A program made the position numbers and the translations under genes. A stretch of DNA of 24,005 bases. Source: a virus. Shown here one piece after another: positions 2,335 to 11,194 of the stretch. The stretch's first letter is position 1. Each line of letters begins with the position of its first letter. The notes beneath the pieces were generated by a model. That model was given only the letters and a program-made list of their open reading frames with translations. It had not been told where the DNA came from and made no database searches. The stretch spans positions 1-24,005 of IMG/VR virus record IMGVR_UViG_3300033149_006616, one strand, 5' to 3'.

Positions 2335-3810
2335 TTATGATCCGGGGCCGAGCGTCGCCCGGACGACGAAATCGCCCTTGGCGTAGAGCGTCGGGCCGCC
2401 CGTCTCCCAGAACTCGTAGCGATACCGGCCGGGCGTCGCGAGGTCCTCGGCGCTGAACTCCAGGACGGCCTGCCCCGCCTCGGCGTCGGTGATGGTGATC
2501 CCGCCCGTCTCGGAGTCGAGGGCGAAAACCTCGTCGTCGTCGCCGCGCTCGAAGACGCGGAACCGGAGGTGCGCATCTGTCAGGTCGACCGCGTTGCCGC
2601 CCGAGTCCTGGAACACCAGGGCGACGTCGACCGCGGCCCCCTCGGCCAGGTCGAACGGCTGCGTCGAGGCGCCCGTCAGGGTGAACGTCGGGAACGTGAC
2701 CTGAAGCGTCCCCGGCAGGACCTGCGTGACGACGTCGTCGGGCGCGGCCCTGGACGAGACGGCGGCGTCCAGGTGGGCGAGCCGCGCCTCGGTGCAGACG
2801 GAGGCCAGGGCGGCCGAGTCCGTGCCGCGCATCGGCGTTCCGAGCGGCTCCGTGTCGCGGATGGCCTCCAGCGAGTCGGTCGCCTCGTCGAACGTGCCGC
2901 CGCCGGCGTTGACCTCGGCCTTCGCGGTCGCGTCCATCGCGTCGGAGCGGAAGAGGCCCCGGAGCCACTTGGCCAGGCTCGTGATGCCCGAGAGGATGGC
3001 CGCGACGGCGTCGATTTTCCCGTCGGTCGTCGCGTGGGCACCCGTGACGTCGGACGATGTGGCTCGCGTCGAGACGGCGGCGTCGAGATTGTCGAGTTTG
3101 TCGGCGGAGCCAACGATGGCCAGAGATTTACCCGTTGTCGACTGTAGTCTGAGCGCTTCGCCGTTCGTTGTATTGTTGTACTGACCGACCGTCCCGCCCT
3201 CGTTGGACTGACCAGCCGTGGTGCCGATATTGAGCTGACCGCTCGTGTTACCGGTATTGAACTGACCCACATCGCTACCGGCATTGTATTGACCCGCATC
3301 GCCACCGACATTGTACTGCCCGGAGCCCGCACTATTGGTGTTACGGCAGTCCAAGGCTCCTTCGTCTGGTACGTCGCATTCGAGTTTTAGTTGTGAGGCC
3401 TTCAGGACCACGCCGCCGGTACCATCGAGGACTGCTTCCAGGTTGTCTGCGGCTGTCTTATCCCCGCTGATCACCACTACGTCGACACCTGTGTAGAGAT
3501 AGGTCTCGAAATACCTTGACTCCGTAGCGCCGGAGTGGTTCTGTACAGTTAGCTTGAGCGTATCGTCAGCCCCACCAATCAGTTCCACCTGGAATATCGC
3601 ATTTCCGGCTGGACGGATTACGTCACTCGAGAAAACTAGTCTGTCGTTGAGATATCCTTTGACGGTATAGGCTCCACCGATGAGGTCATCAACCCAGATC
3701 CCGGCGTGTAGATGCAAGGCTTCTGGTTCATTCGGTAAGGTTCCCTCGAAGACGGTTACCTCACTTGCGAAGTCGCCTTCACCATCATATGCGGTTCCGA
3801 TTACTTTCAT
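2335..3810 (-). CDS. Tail fibre / baseplate-like protein with nonapeptide repeats and BppU-like C-terminus
   Basis: A 491-residue protein from ATG 3810, overlapping the LamG gene by ATGA. Residues 1-160 are beta-rich with no recognised domain. Residues 164-217 hold six 9-residue repeats starting GQYN, GQFN, GQLN or GQSN, probably a beta-solenoid shaft. Next come two phage-fibre motifs of the form LDAAVSxRA (about 242-250 and again near 348). The last 120 residues (FDLAEGAAVDVALVFQDSGG... to TPGRYRYEFWE) resemble the N-terminal domain of BppU-type baseplate proteins, used to attach receptor-binding parts. The first half is much richer in A+T than the rest of the window, which suggests transfer or rapid host-range evolution. 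Likely role: host attachment, with the LamG neighbour. Confidence 0.6.
   Translation of the reverse strand: MKVIGTAYDGEGDFASEVTVFEGTLPNEPEALHLHAGIWVDDLIGGAYTVKGYLNDRLVFSSDVIRPAGNAIFQVELIGGADDTLKLTVQNHSGATESRYFETYLYTGVDVVVISGDKTAADNLEAVLDGTGGVVLKASQLKLECDVPDEGALDCRNTNSAGSGQYNVGGDAGQYNAGSDVGQFNTGNTSGQLNIGTTAGQSNEGGTVGQYNNTTNGEALRLQSTTGKSLAIVGSADKLDNLDAAVSTRATSSDVTGAHATTDGKIDAVAAILSGITSLAKWLRGLFRSDAMDATAKAEVNAGGGTFDEATDSLEAIRDTEPLGTPMRGTDSAALASVCTEARLAHLDAAVSSRAAPDDVVTQVLPGTLQVTFPTFTLTGASTQPFDLAEGAAVDVALVFQDSGGNAVDLTDAHLRFRVFERGDDDEVFALDSETGGITITDAEAGQAVLEFSAEDLATPGRYRYEFWETGGPTLYAKGDFVVRATLGPGS
3160..3321 (-). repeat. Six 27-bp coding repeats (GQxN nonapeptide) in the fibre gene
   Basis: Each unit encodes nine residues beginning Gly-Gln-(Tyr/Phe/Leu/Ser)-Asn: GQYNVGGDA, GQYNAGSDV, GQFNTGNTS, GQLNIGTTA, GQSNEGGTV, then a decayed GQYNNTTNG. 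At DNA level they appear as divergent 27-bp repeats. The regular period, small turn residues and stacked Asn suggest a beta-helical shaft. Confidence 0.8.
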
Positions 3811-4532
3811 GTCCGTACCCCCGCAAAGAGACCTCCGGAAATGGGGCCGCGTCGTAGTACTCGTTGTCCTTCACCGTAGCGGACGATCGGAAAATCCGTC
3901 GTGTAGCGGACGCACTTGCTCAGACGGACCTCGTCCATGACGCATGAGGGAGCGTAGTTGTACCTACTGACGTCGAGGTAGCCCGAGGGATCGCTTCCTA
4001 TCCCCACGATATCGCCCGATGCACTCGATCTCCGAAGAATACCATTCACGTAGAGACGAAGCCTGTACTCATCGTTAGCATCGAGCACAGCTGCGACGTG
4101 CCACGGATTTGCTCCCCGAAGAATTGTCAAAACATCCGCCGATGTCCACTGGGCGCTGCGTTCACTGATTCCACTCTTCCACCACGAAGCTATAATGAAG
4201 GAGCTTGCATCTCCGTTGTCACAAGCACGGATGCGAAGTTGGCCACCACATACAAAGTCTAAAATCGTAAGATTAGCCCCCGCTTCCGTCCAGTCGCGAA
4301 CCCAGCACTCTATCGTGGCTTGAGGCAGCGCTTCTGGTACGGAGACGGAAGCGCGCATGTAGCTGTTTTCAATATGGTCGAAGCGATAGCCGTCTTCGAC
4401 TGCCACCGCGCCATAGTTCGTGAACGTCGGACCCGTGCCGACGGGCGTGAGGCGCCCGCCGGAGGCGCCGAAACGCCAGTAGCCGAGTTCGGCCGCGTCG
4501 AGGGCGCCGGGATAGATGGCGAACGGTCTCAT
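3807..4532 (-). CDS. LamG / concanavalin A-like lectin-domain protein, candidate receptor-binding protein
   Basis: A 241-residue protein from ATG 4532, coupled by ATGA overlaps to the glycosyltransferase upstream and the fibre gene downstream. It has the order of a LamG/ConA-like jelly-roll domain: ALDAAELGYWRFG near residues 10-22, then QATIECWVRDW, ANPWHVAAVLDANDEYRLRLYVNGILRRSS, and SGYLDVSRYNYAPSCVMDEVRLSKCVRYTTDF. The last block is the usual end of such domains. In phages these domains bind glycans or form part of host-binding tips. No signal peptide is seen, which fits a virion protein. The gene is AT-richer than the head genes. The specific ligand cannot be told. Confidence 0.7.
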   Translation of the reverse strand: MRPFAIYPGALDAAELGYWRFGASGGRLTPVGTGPTFTNYGAVAVEDGYRFDHIENSYMRASVSVPEALPQATIECWVRDWTEAGANLTILDFVCGGQLRIRACDNGDASSFIIASWWKSGISERSAQWTSADVLTILRGANPWHVAAVLDANDEYRLRLYVNGILRRSSASGDIVGIGSDPSGYLDVSRYNYAPSCVMDEVRLSKCVRYTTDFPIVRYGEGQRVLRRGPISGGLFAGVRT

Positions 4533-5698
4533 GGTGCCGCGCCCCCCTGGCCGCGTCCCGCACCGGGCAGGCCCGTCCGCCGCCCGAGGACTTTCCGGTA
4601 CAGCGCCTCGTAGGCCCGGACCGTGGCCTCGATCCGGTGATGTTTCTCAACGTACCGCCGCCCGGCTTGGCCGTGGCGGACGGCCCGCAGCGGCTCGGCC
4701 AGGTAGGACTCGATGTAGGCGGCCATGGCCGCGTCGTCGTCGACGGCCACGAGGCGGCCCCGCTCGCCGCCCTCGCCCAAGAGCAGTTCGGGCACGCCGC
4801 CTACGGCCGTCGCCACGACGGGCAGACCCGCGGCCATCGCCTCCAGCATGGCCAGGGGCGCACCCTCCGACGACGACGTCAGGGCGAACAGGTCGGCCTC
4901 CGCCAGGTGGCGCCGGACCTCGGCCTGGCTGACGTATCCGGTGATCTCGATCCGGCCGCCGGCCCGCGCGGCCTCGGCCTGGAGCGTATCGTCCATCCAC
5001 CGCGACTCGGGCCGCGAGCCGCCGACGACCCGGAAGATCGGCTCGGGCCGCCCGTCGGCCCGCGCGGCCGACTGGACCAGGCCCGCCACGCGGGCGAACA
5101 TCCGGTGGTGCTTGGCCCAGGGTAAGATGCGGCCGACCGTGATCACGAGCGGCGAGCCGCGGACCTCGGGCTGCGCGTTGCGGGCGACAAAGGCGTCCAC
5201 GTCGATGCCGTTATTCACGTGCTCGACGATCAGGCCCCGCGGCCAGAGGTCCGAAATGTAGGCGACCGTCTGGCGGTCCACCGTGGTGACGGCCGCGACG
5301 GGTTCGCCCGGGTAGAAGTTGTCGGTGTACCAAAGCGTCCAGCCGGCGAGCGAGTGGATTGTATGGACGATCGGCAGGCCGCCCGGCGGCCGCGCCTTCG
5401 TGGCGGCCTCGGCCAGACCCCGCCGCCACTTCGGGCCGAAGAGGGAGAGGTTCACCAGGTCGTAGGCGGCCAGCAGGTCCGCGAGGCAGCAGCAACCGTT
5501 CTGCCAGCAGTCGGCCGGGATGGTGAGGACGCGGCCCCATCCGGCGTCGGCGAGTTCCTCGGCCCCGCGATGGCGGTTCTCGGCCGGCACGAGGACGTCG
5601 GCCTCGTGGCCGCGGGCGCGGAGGCCGCGGGCGAGGTCCGAGAAGAGGATCTCGGCGCCGCCGACCTCGATGGACGCTAGGGCATAGAGGATCTTCAT
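4529..5698 (-). CDS. Family 4 glycosyltransferase (GT-B fold)
   Basis: A 389-residue protein starting MKILYALASIEVGGAEILFS at ATG 5698, GGAG about 8 nt upstream. The N-terminal Rossmann half has the GG loop at residues 13-14 (VGGAE). The C-terminal half has VITVGRILPWAKHH, the helix EITGYVSQAEVRRHLAEADL, and the EX7E motif with E278 and E286 (SSSEGAPLAMLEAMAAGLPV), followed by VATAVGGVPELL. These are the marks of retaining GT4 enzymes that move sugar from a nucleotide-sugar to an acceptor. Length is normal for the family. An unusual Cys-rich patch (CWQNGCCCLAD) lies at about 64-74. It sits between the major head gene and the adhesins, so it may decorate virion proteins, or change the host surface. 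It uses GC-rich codons like the head genes, unlike the adhesins. Confidence 0.88.
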   Translation of the reverse strand: MKILYALASIEVGGAEILFSDLARGLRARGHEADVLVPAENRHRGAEELADAGWGRVLTIPADCWQNGCCCLADLLAAYDLVNLSLFGPKWRRGLAEAATKARPPGGLPIVHTIHSLAGWTLWYTDNFYPGEPVAAVTTVDRQTVAYISDLWPRGLIVEHVNNGIDVDAFVARNAQPEVRGSPLVITVGRILPWAKHHRMFARVAGLVQSAARADGRPEPIFRVVGGSRPESRWMDDTLQAEAARAGGRIEITGYVSQAEVRRHLAEADLFALTSSSEGAPLAMLEAMAAGLPVVATAVGGVPELLLGEGGERGRLVAVDDDAAMAAYIESYLAEPLRAVRHGQAGRRYVEKHHRIEATVRAYEALYRKVLGRRTGLPGAGRGQGGAAP

Positions 5699-8896: not shown

Positions 8897-8935
8897 AACG
8901 CAGAGATCTCCGCGTGCTCTCTGTCCCTCTGCGTT
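8897..8935. repeat. CTCTGCG-type repeats forming a 9-bp inverted repeat between MuF and protease genes
   Basis: AACGCAGAG (8897-8905) and CTCTGCGTT (8927-8935) are exact inverted copies and can pair around a 21-nt loop. The right arm overlaps the MuF stop codon. Within the span are 9-mers CTCCGCGTG, CTCTCTGTC and CTCTGCGTT, related to those at 2300-2326 and 13298-13315. A weak terminator or processing site is possible, but there is no long U-run. Confidence 0.65.
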
Positions 8936-9701
8936 AAAACATATGCTTCTGGATCGCCTGCCAGAGGCCCGTGCCGGGGTTGCCCAAAAAGCCGGGGTCC
9001 GGTGACACGGCCGGCGGCGCGGGCGCCGCCGCGAGGCCCCCGCGGGCCTCGACCTCCTCGGGCGCGAGGAGCCGGACCTGGCACCGGCAGTTCCACCCGT
9101 TGGGCGGCCACCAGATCGCCCACGTGGGCGCGTCCAGCGGCCCCCACCAGCCGTCCATCGCGAGGTGGTTCGCCCTGGTCCGATCATCCTCGACGGCCAC
9201 GTACTCGGCCGCCGCCACCAGGCCGTCCTCGGCCAGTGTCCGTGCGGCCGTCCACTGGCCGCCCGCATAGGCGGACTGGACGTTCGTGCGGAAGATCGTC
9301 TCCAGGTGCCAGGGTGAAGCCGGATCGAGGCCCCGCGACGTCGTGACGGCGTCGAGAGCCTCACCGAACCGGTCGACCGTCCACCCCTCGCGGACGGCCT
9401 CCGCCAGGGCGTCCTCGACCTCGGCGGCGATGGCGTCGGTCTCGGCCGCGGCTAGCGTCATCGCCTCGCGCCGGCCCCAGTCGAGTACGTTGTCCGTCTG
9501 AATGCCAAAGATCGCATTTTTCTTGAGGCTCGCGACGGCCCGCTCGTAATCGAGGCCCGGCCCGCCGATCATCCCCGCGACCGCGCCCTCGACCTTGATT
9601 TCCGCCAGGGCGTCGATCAGGGGCCCGAGGACCTCGGGCAACTCGCCCGCGGCCGCCTGCGCCCGGAGGCCCGCGAGAAACGCGCGGACCTCCTCTAGAC
9701 T
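8934..9701 (-). CDS. F: MuF-type head morphogenesis protein, expressed by -1 frameshift from the portal gene or from a weak TTG
   Basis: The C-terminal half carries the Phage_Mu_F (SPP1 gp7-like) signature: WHLETIFRTNVQSAYAGGQW, then DDRTRANHLAMDGWW and PPNGWNCRCQVRLL. These proteins sit inside or at the base of the head and are needed for assembly. In this frame no ATG or GTG exists near the beginning; the only canonical-type start is TTG at 9641, without a Shine-Dalgarno site. The frame is open upstream across the portal stop, and the residues read through (SLEEVRAFLAGLRAQAAAGE) look like a real amphipathic helix. The limits given run from the first codon after a -1 slip on the A7 run to the TAA. 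As a portal-MuF fusion the product would be 753 residues. An indel error in the A7 run could also give this picture. Confidence 0.8.
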   Translation of the reverse strand, partial: SLEEVRAFLAGLRAQAAAGELPEVLGPLIDALAEIKVEGAVAGMIGGPGLDYERAVASLKKNAIFGIQTDNVLDWGRREAMTLAAAETDAIAAEVEDALAEAVREGWTVDRFGEALDAVTTSRGLDPASPWHLETIFRTNVQSAYAGGQWTAARTLAEDGLVAAAEYVAVEDDRTRANHLAMDGWWGPLDAPTWAIWWPPNGWNCRCQVRLLAPEEVEARGGLAAAPAPPAVSPDPGFLGNPGTGLWQAIQKHMF

Positions 9702-9707
9702 TTTTTT
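9665..9707 (-). promoter_or_regulatory. Predicted programmed -1 ribosomal frameshift signal (slippery A7 plus hairpin)
   Basis: On the minus strand the portal frame reads CGA AAA AAA GTC TAG. The run A AAA AAA (9701-9707) fits X XXY YYZ in the zero frame. After a 7-nt spacer containing the portal UAG comes an 11-bp stem, GGAGGUCCGCG (9683-9693) pairing with CGCGGGCCUCC (9665-9675) with one G-U wobble and a 7-nt loop. The downstream MuF frame is exactly -1. The 5' arm also contains an AGGAGG that could bind 16S rRNA. Confidence 0.75.
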
Positions 9708-11194
9708 CGTCGGGCCTGGCCGAGGATCGCCTCGGCGAGGGCCTTGTTGGCCGCCGGCACGCGGGCCAGCGCCCGCCGTTCGGCGGCGCTCAAGGCGCCT
9801 GCCGGTGCGTCACCGGCGAACTCGGCCGGCGCGTCGGTCTCGGTCGGCGGCGGCTCGGGCGGCAGACCCGCGCGGCCGGATAGGCCGAGCAGGCCGCCCG
9901 CGCCGAACGGCGATGCGAGGGCCGTCGCGGCGGCCGGCGCCAAGATTTCGTCGTCCTCCTCGGGCGTCGGCACATCGAACTGTTCGTTGACGTACCACGC
10001 CGGGATCGCGACGCCCATCCGCTGGAGGCGTTCGAGCGTCTCGGACGCGGGGCCGGCGTCCTGTTTGGTCCAGCGCCAGTAGAATTCCGGCGGCTCGTCC
10101 AAGGCAAAATTCAGGCCGTGCAGCGGCCCGACCAAGTCCGACTGGATCGCCGCGGCGATCCACTCGCCGACGATCCACGTCCATGGACGCGACGTCCGGG
10201 CGTGCGTCTCGGTCGCCCGGAGCGCCCCCGTTTCGGCGCCCTCCAACATCTGGAGCGTGGCGCCCGTCAGGCCGACGACGATCTCCTTGTCACAGTCGGC
10301 AATCGCGGAGGCGAACACGTCGGCCGGGGCGGTTGCGAGCTCAACTAGGTCCACCTGGAGGTCCGAGGGGATGGCGAAGCCCAGGGACTCCTGGAGTTGT
10401 GTCAGAAGATTCTCGGCCGATTGGCGGCCCGCGTCACCCTGGTCGGCTGGGTAGACGACCTTCCGGCGGCCCTTCGAGAGGGCCTCCAGAAAGATCGCCC
10501 GGAATTTCCACGCGTTGTCCTTCACCCAGAACGCGCGGTAGGCCGCCCGGAACTCCGACTGGCCGAGCGGGTTCGCGTAGCACGGCAACCAGGAGACGAC
10601 GATGAACCGCGTCCGGTCGCGAGTGACCCATTCGCCGCGGACCTGCTGCTTCAGCGATATGATGTTGAGGTACTCGTCGACCTCGAAATCCCACGTATCG
10701 ACGTCCTTGGCCTTGAGGCCCGCTAGGCCCACCCTGCCGGCCCAGCGGCCCCGCTCGATCGGCACGAGGACCTTCTCGATGACCGCAAAGCCATCGACGA
10801 GGGCGCGCGACAGATCGAAGACCAATTGCAGCATGCCCGTCCCCGGCAGCCGCCGGAGCACGTAGCGGAGAAAATCGGCGGCCTCGACGTTCGGGTCGTC
10901 GTCGTCCGGCCGGCGACGGGCGTCGTAGTCGGCCGGCCGGACGTCCCAGTCGGTGGCCATGACAGGGAAAACGCGCGAAAGATAGGCCGCCTTGACGGTC
11001 GCGTCGCGCATCATGTCGCGATAGACCGAGAGGCGGAGGGCCTTCGAGGCCAGGAGATCATCGGCGTAATAGGGCTTGATGCCCCAGCGGGCCGTGTCGG
11101 CCTCGGCGAAGGCGACGCCGGTCTCGCGGTCCTGGCCCCGCAGGGCCCGGGCCACCCAGTCAGCGGCCTTGGCGAGTTGGTCTCGAGCGCTCAC
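9695..11194 (-). CDS. Portal protein (Mu gp29-like, DUF935)
   Basis: A 499-residue protein from GTG 11194, overlapping the terminase stop (GTGA), with GGAGGG 7 nt upstream. DUF935 marks include DATVKAAYLSRVFPVMATDW (about 60-80), LVFDLSRALVDGFAVIEKVL, the strand RTRFIVVSWLPCYANPLGQSEF followed by RAAYRAFWVKDNAWKFRAIF, and VGLTGATLQM with ALRATETH. These match gp29-type portals, the ring through which DNA enters the head. The usual C-terminal helical tail after about residue 440 is replaced by a Pro/Ala linker (PPEPPPTETDAPAEF) and a short helix ending QARRKKV. The stop falls directly after a slippery A7 run, so some ribosomes probably continue into the MuF gene. Confidence 0.9.
   Translation of the reverse strand: MSARDQLAKAADWVARALRGQDRETGVAFAEADTARWGIKPYYADDLLASKALRLSVYRDMMRDATVKAAYLSRVFPVMATDWDVRPADYDARRRPDDDDPNVEAADFLRYVLRRLPGTGMLQLVFDLSRALVDGFAVIEKVLVPIERGRWAGRVGLAGLKAKDVDTWDFEVDEYLNIISLKQQVRGEWVTRDRTRFIVVSWLPCYANPLGQSEFRAAYRAFWVKDNAWKFRAIFLEALSKGRRKVVYPADQGDAGRQSAENLLTQLQESLGFAIPSDLQVDLVELATAPADVFASAIADCDKEIVVGLTGATLQMLEGAETGALRATETHARTSRPWTWIVGEWIAAAIQSDLVGPLHGLNFALDEPPEFYWRWTKQDAGPASETLERLQRMGVAIPAWYVNEQFDVPTPEEDDEILAPAAATALASPFGAGGLLGLSGRAGLPPEPPPTETDAPAEFAGDAPAGALSAAERRALARVPAANKALAEAILGQARRKKV

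Follow-up and report, generated by a model that had tools for sequence, protein, structure and literature searches.

How the MuF head protein is produced in a phage whose MuF frame overlaps the end of the portal gene, lies exactly in -1 and has no ATG or GTG near its beginning is the question raised by this locus, for which the first-pass annotation had proposed a programmed -1 ribosomal frameshift. The window, meaning the whole stretch of DNA that was analysed, is a 24,005-base IMG/VR virus record of 70% GC, and the DNA transposition protein encoded at 16999-15689 fits a Mu-like phage. The portal matched Portal_Mu (PF06074) with an E-value of 4e-50 and 171.3 bits against a cut-off of 23.9, and MuF matched Phage_Mu_F (PF04233) with an E-value of 3e-15 and 57.5 bits against a cut-off of 29.6, which satisfies the criteria for a Mu-type portal and for MuF. 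Both genes adjoin the terminase, and the arrangement that defines a tail assembly chaperone (G/GT), a pair placed before the tape measure gene, is absent here. The coordinates of the features are collected in Table 1. Two ORFs were also observed on the minus strand between the head and neck genes (3807-5698), one of which (4529-5698) matches phage glycosyltransferase profiles, with the ORF beside it (3807-4532) giving only a weak match, itself of unknown function.

Table 1. Features of the portal/MuF junction in the window (all on the minus strand).
Feature	Position	Strand	Details
Large terminase	13074-11191	minus	
Portal gene, Portal_Mu, Mu gp29-like	9695..11194	minus	GTG start 11194, stop TAG 9697-9695; 499 aa ending ...RKKV*
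MuF -1 frame	open 9809-8934	minus	Phage_Mu_F PF04233
Slippery heptamer A_AAA_AAA (A7)	9701..9707	minus	0-frame reading cgA AAA AAA GTC TAG
-1 extension after the putative slip	8934..9701	minus	SLEEVRAFLAGL..., remaining portal tail then MuF domain; predicted fusion 753 aa
7-nt spacer GTCTAGA	9694..9700	minus	contains portal stop TAG 9697-9695
Hairpin	9665..9693	minus	9693-9683 pairs with 9675-9665, 11 bp, one U-G; loop 9682-9676, 7 nt
TTG codon	9639..9641	minus	sole conventional start candidate near MuF beginning; without Shine-Dalgarno

The elements described by the first-pass annotation, namely the portal end with a correct slippery A7, the spacer with its GC-rich stem and loop, and a MuF frame in -1 with no ATG or GTG nearby and only a TTG lacking a ribosome site, were all confirmed in the sequence at the positions of Table 1. 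An X_XXY_YYZ heptamer in the 0 frame ahead of the portal stop and a structure 5-9 nt downstream, both taken as criteria for a frameshift signal, are hence present. The A7 is the only A or T run of seven or more in the 24 kb, the chance expectation being about 0.15 sense A7+ runs for the 24 kb and 0.0007 for the 114-nt overlap, and it does not reach the homopolymer of about nine or more A that was set for transcriptional slippage. The hairpin folds strongly over the first 45 nt (z -3.1) and is unremarkable over 61 nt (z -0.25), since any stretch of 75% GC folds. An AGGAGG at 9694-9689 was considered as a ribosome site for MuF and rejected, as no start codon lies at a usable distance from it in any frame.

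The closest relative (L005, MuF 59% identical) carries A10 at the same place with MuF in -1, and a TGA closes its -1 frame just ahead of the A10, so that a slip is possible only at or after the run. From the run to a TTG common to both, the -1 frame is conserved (SLEEVRAFLAGLRAQAAAGE in the window, RPEDVRAALDALKADLAAGR in L005), with the differences over the 25 trans-frame codons numbering 6, 8 and 17 at -1 codon positions 1, 2 and 3, respectively, and 10 codon changes being synonymous, whereas the 0-frame ends are not conserved (KV* versus GRKTFGRPSMP*). Conservation of the -1 frame as protein directly after the heptamer, a further criterion, is seen in the window and also in the Bacillus phages described below. 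When frame-corrected fusions were compared with a profile built from the tails of 122 ordinary portals, the match ran across the slip (E 6e-9 for the window fusion). Taken by itself, the post-slip part scored above every one of 50 shuffles in 14 of 22 loci, among them the window, with 5.7 against a shuffle maximum of 2.9. The earlier suggestion that the read-through residues are real protein resembling the helical portal tail is thus borne out by the conserved frame and by the profile. AlphaFold2 was used to model a naturally fused protein (L200; 725 aa, pLDDT 74, pTM 0.44, 14 sequences). The prediction has the portal core extending to about residue 390, a disordered linker at 398-422, three helices at 420-493 and, past another linker, MuF from residue 509. 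The A9 run of L200 falls at about residue 430, near the beginning of the modelled helices, and the short product would therefore retain the portal core, the tail helices and MuF being gained through the slip.

The window's exact stem was sought in L005, L006 and L008 and was not found, so its support comes from its own strength and from an analogous hairpin following U_UUU_UUC in other phages. The comparison with relatives, proposed at the outset as a check, gave a divided answer: the slippery site with MuF in -1 is kept and single-ORF fusions exist, whereas the exact A7 and the 11-bp stem are not conserved, L005 having A10 without a matching stem. The site is conserved in position and frame, as was looked for, with the slippery sequence varying. 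The first-pass reading of the window as a -1 frameshift signal is nevertheless supported, in that relatives keep a slip site at the junction with MuF in -1 and the signal geometry recurs with covariation.

Because of the heptamer, the spacer, the hairpin and the conserved -1 frame, ribosomal -1 frameshifting is the best account of the window, and it very probably produces a 499-aa portal core together with a 753-aa portal-MuF fusion, although neither protein nor ribosome-profiling data stand behind this reading. Most ribosomes would read the portal to the TAG and release the portal core, and a fraction, aided by the hairpin 7 nt downstream, would slip at A_AAA_AAA, read R-K-K-S-L-E... in -1, complete the C-terminal helical portal tail and add MuF. 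Fusion subunits, if co-assembled in the portal ring, would bring MuF into the head in a proportion governed by how often the slip occurs, a step inferred by analogy with SPP1, whose gp7 binds the portal. What the DNA itself displays is the signal, the frame, the conservation of the -1 frame and the recurrence with other slippery sequences; frameshifting as such, its efficiency, the product ratio, ring incorporation, capsid targeting and function are all inferred.

Poly-A slippery runs of A8-A10 with MuF in -1 were observed in about 14 divergent portal/MuF loci. In all, 208 deduplicated portal+MuF loci were classed by frame, the remainder of the same loci serving as the background for enrichment. 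Between the domains, sense A8+ runs were 20-fold enriched where MuF overlaps in -1 and has no ATG (9 runs among 19 loci, p 4e-8) and 11-fold where both domains share one ORF (7 among 28 loci, p 2e-5), with no enrichment in +1 overlaps with ATG (1 in 74) and one T8+ run in all on the same inter-domain stretch. Since run-bearing loci supplied two of the queries, the frequencies are biased, while the within-locus contrast is unbiased. The 0 frame of the run-bearing -1 loci ends at most 16 codons from the run and the -1 frame continues through MuF, with examples such as Winogradskyella phage Peternella_1 (L337, NC_062754), in which a tandem A10 then A7 at the portal end (2549-2569) both lead into the same -1 frame and the portal and MuF are annotated as two separate head genes; EBPR siphovirus 4, with A9 at the junction; and two Bacteroidota genomes (L381 with A9, L385 with A10). 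An in-frame A9 or A10 was found in eight fused loci, where a slip would instead yield a short portal. One of these eight belongs to a gut phage with a portal 44% identical to that of Peternella, and phrog_2662, named portal, matches MuF, indicating that single-ORF portal-MuF fusions are already present in profile libraries. Run loci are scattered over the portal+MuF tree, with at least about 17 state changes (one row being misassigned). The fusion is not universally needed, since many Mu-like phages, 74 of the 208 loci, use ordinary overlapping genes with a +1 overlap and an ATG. The A8 of a Porphyromonas phage (L336) was rejected as a slip site, the run sitting inside the MuF domain. As separate observations, nearly the same nucleotides surround the A9 (GGCTC-A9-CGCT) in L064/L328 and L340, lying within a fused ORF in one of these phages and within a -1 overlap in another, which looks as though upstream indels had swapped the topology; and L102 (4984-5044) has a fused portal-MuF ORF with A7 and T10 in its linker, both shifted frames stopping at most 5 codons from the T10.

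Another class is represented by Bacteroidota-type portals ending in ...FFD*, with U_UUU_UUC exactly 12 nt ahead of the stop, MuF in -1 without a near ATG and a GC-rich hairpin beginning 6 nt past the heptamer; this layout is that of a standard ribosomal -1 frameshift signal and shares its geometry with the window. A scan of IMG/VR for TTTTTTCGAYTRRGCCC returned at least 120 contigs, to which two genomes were added, and among the matches listed 116 of 122 were portal/MuF junctions by profile search, giving at least 110 distinct junctions of this type with the hairpin. The pattern occurs twice in 395 genomes of the same phylum, both times at a portal/MuF junction. Since the pattern fixes the first four hairpin pairs, only the three variable pairs are informative, and among the matches listed these are paired in 90% of cases over 108 junctions, against 58% (maximum 66%) when permuted. 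In 39 distinct equal-length sequences, again among the matches listed, 95.6% of cells are paired and 34 cells have changed on both sides; none of 500 shuffles reached this covariation, and slid versions are only 30-56% paired. Hairpins of this group average a z of -2.8 over 45 nt. The A8 run of L343 was discarded because it cannot feed MuF, the real site there being U_UUU_UUC. A fifth heptamer, A_AAT_TTT, was seen in L380 (2541-2590), 12 nt ahead of the portal stop and followed by a GCCCC...GGGGC hairpin as in the U_UUU_UUC group. Portal_Mu matches were also recorded in 144 of 291 genomes of the phylum of G002 (a Candidatus Zipacnadia MAG), compared with 44 of 395 sampled Bacteroidota genomes and 13 of 392 sampled Planctomycetes genomes; many portal ORFs in that phylum are short and could belong to a domesticated element.

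In a fourth class, found in cultured phages, the portal ends in G_GGA_AAG TAA in Bacillus phages Blastoid, Curly, Leo2 and 280BB001 and in Rossellomorea phage phiT1, and in A_AAA_AAG TAA in BpsS-36, with MuF in -1 in all six. G_GGA_AAG is the heptamer of lambda G/GT. These phages share a conserved stretch of residues (GKVNTSEVLTPKVITFGERRK) that runs from the heptamer to the ATG annotated for MuF, and in three Andromedaviruses the differences upstream of that ATG fall almost only at third positions of the -1 frame, so that MuF probably does not begin at the annotated ATG. In Staphylococcus phage MVC_VPHSA2 (L555, 3150-3260), the portal ends in G_GGA_AAA and the -1 frame gives a conserved TFGERQK, with MuF annotated in another frame and the record seeming to contain a frame break.

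Among the other explanations, the one that survives best is slippage of RNA polymerase on the A run, by which a base added to some transcripts would place the portal and MuF in one frame and lead to the same products by a different step. It is favored by the poly-A relatives, most of which have A9-A10 and weak downstream structure (mean z -0.7 over 45 nt in the A8-A10 loci), and by the eight fused relatives, in which -1 and +1 slips both stop within 14 codons, although these early stops were not accepted as support in their own right because the fused loci with a run are only modestly above chance (combined p 0.017). The window, however, has only A7 together with the strong hairpin, a +1 slip would run for 114 codons in the window and 239 in L005, and the lineages with U_UUU_UUC and its covarying hairpin or with G_GGA_AAG carry ribosomal-type signals. 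Transcriptional slippage was accordingly down-weighted for the window owing to the A7 and appears unlikely there, and it was retained for the A9-A10 relatives, in which it is an equal candidate to ribosomal frameshifting. Production of MuF as a separate protein, by initiation at TTG 9641 or reinitiation past the portal stop, is far less credible: the TTG does occupy the same codon in L005, ATG overlaps occur in many relatives and L020 and L031 have an ATG or GTG at the portal stop besides the A run, but TTG makes up about 10% of Leu codons here, so that one common TTG is not striking, and it lacks a Shine-Dalgarno. Moreover, ATG, GTG and TTG are all absent from the window's MuF frame ahead of TTG 9641, the protein stretch encoded ahead of that codon is conserved in the -1 frame and looks like portal tail, and in 12 of the 16 poly-A -1 loci the MuF frame is free of ATG and GTG over the interval that opens 40 nt ahead of the portal stop and closes 60 nt past it. 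That the A run reflects misassembly, gene decay or a phase-variable tract can practically be ruled out, for although homopolymers are error-prone and mutable and the A count rests on assembled contigs rather than raw reads, a second contig (L003, 99.95% identical over 7.6 kb with 4 SNPs elsewhere) carries the same A7, making a miscount unlikely, dozens of unrelated loci, some of them in isolate genomes, show the same arrangement, MuF is in frame 0 or -1 and never +1 wherever the run sits at the junction (about one third +1 being expected if random), and the slippery sequence changes between lineages with the frame kept.

With ribosomal -1 frameshifting preferred for the window, the common outcome across the lineages is two portal forms, with and without MuF. 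It is likely that recoding which sets the amount of portal-linked MuF is widespread and repeatedly evolved in tailed phages with Mu-type portals, with at least four slippery classes, two interchangeable topologies (a slip giving the fusion, or a fused ORF with a slip giving the bare portal) and a mixed ring with MuF on a minority of its subunits. Portals are usually treated as homododecamers; conserved recoding that adds MuF to some subunits would, if true, imply deliberately mixed portal rings and explain how a minor head or pilot protein is delivered into the capsid in few copies. Many portal/MuF genes would then be mis-annotated, with MuF starts set too far downstream, and MuF delivery would become testable in cultured phages such as Bacillus Curly, Leo2 and 280BB001 and Winogradskyella Peternella_1.

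The first-pass annotation knew of no described case at this gene pair, and none was found in the literature searched, which left most subscription journals outside, so that novelty is not proven; the main text of the GeneTack survey does not mention a portal. Among phage proteins, tail chaperones and those of the capsid and tail tube are known to be subject to frameshifting (PMC5009743, PMC6316719), and recoding yields a minority C-terminally extended virion subunit in T7/T3 gp10A/B, Lactobacillus A2, Listeria PSA and SPP1 gp17.1* (PMC5009743, PMC6316719), where the extension is an Ig-like or FN3-type domain on a capsid or tail protein, whereas here it would be MuF on the portal. The tail assembly chaperones gpG/gpGT of lambda are likewise a late structural pair in which a -1 slip occurs shortly before the first ORF ends, giving short and long products with a common N terminus, and the Bacillus relatives of the window phage use lambda's own heptamer; the present pair differs in being portal and MuF of the head module, with a long product inferred to enter the virion. 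In SPP1, a small number of gp7 (MuF) copies reach the head by binding the gp6 portal (PMC6316719), the two being separate genes with non-covalent binding, whereas the link in the window phage would be covalent. The frameshift or transcriptional slippage of dnaX is similar in its A_AAA_AAG or poly-A sites, its short and long products and the fact that both topologies are workable, although the genes are unrelated, and retroviral Gag-Pol offers an analogy of logic only, in that a minority fusion to a shell subunit brings cargo at a fixed ratio.
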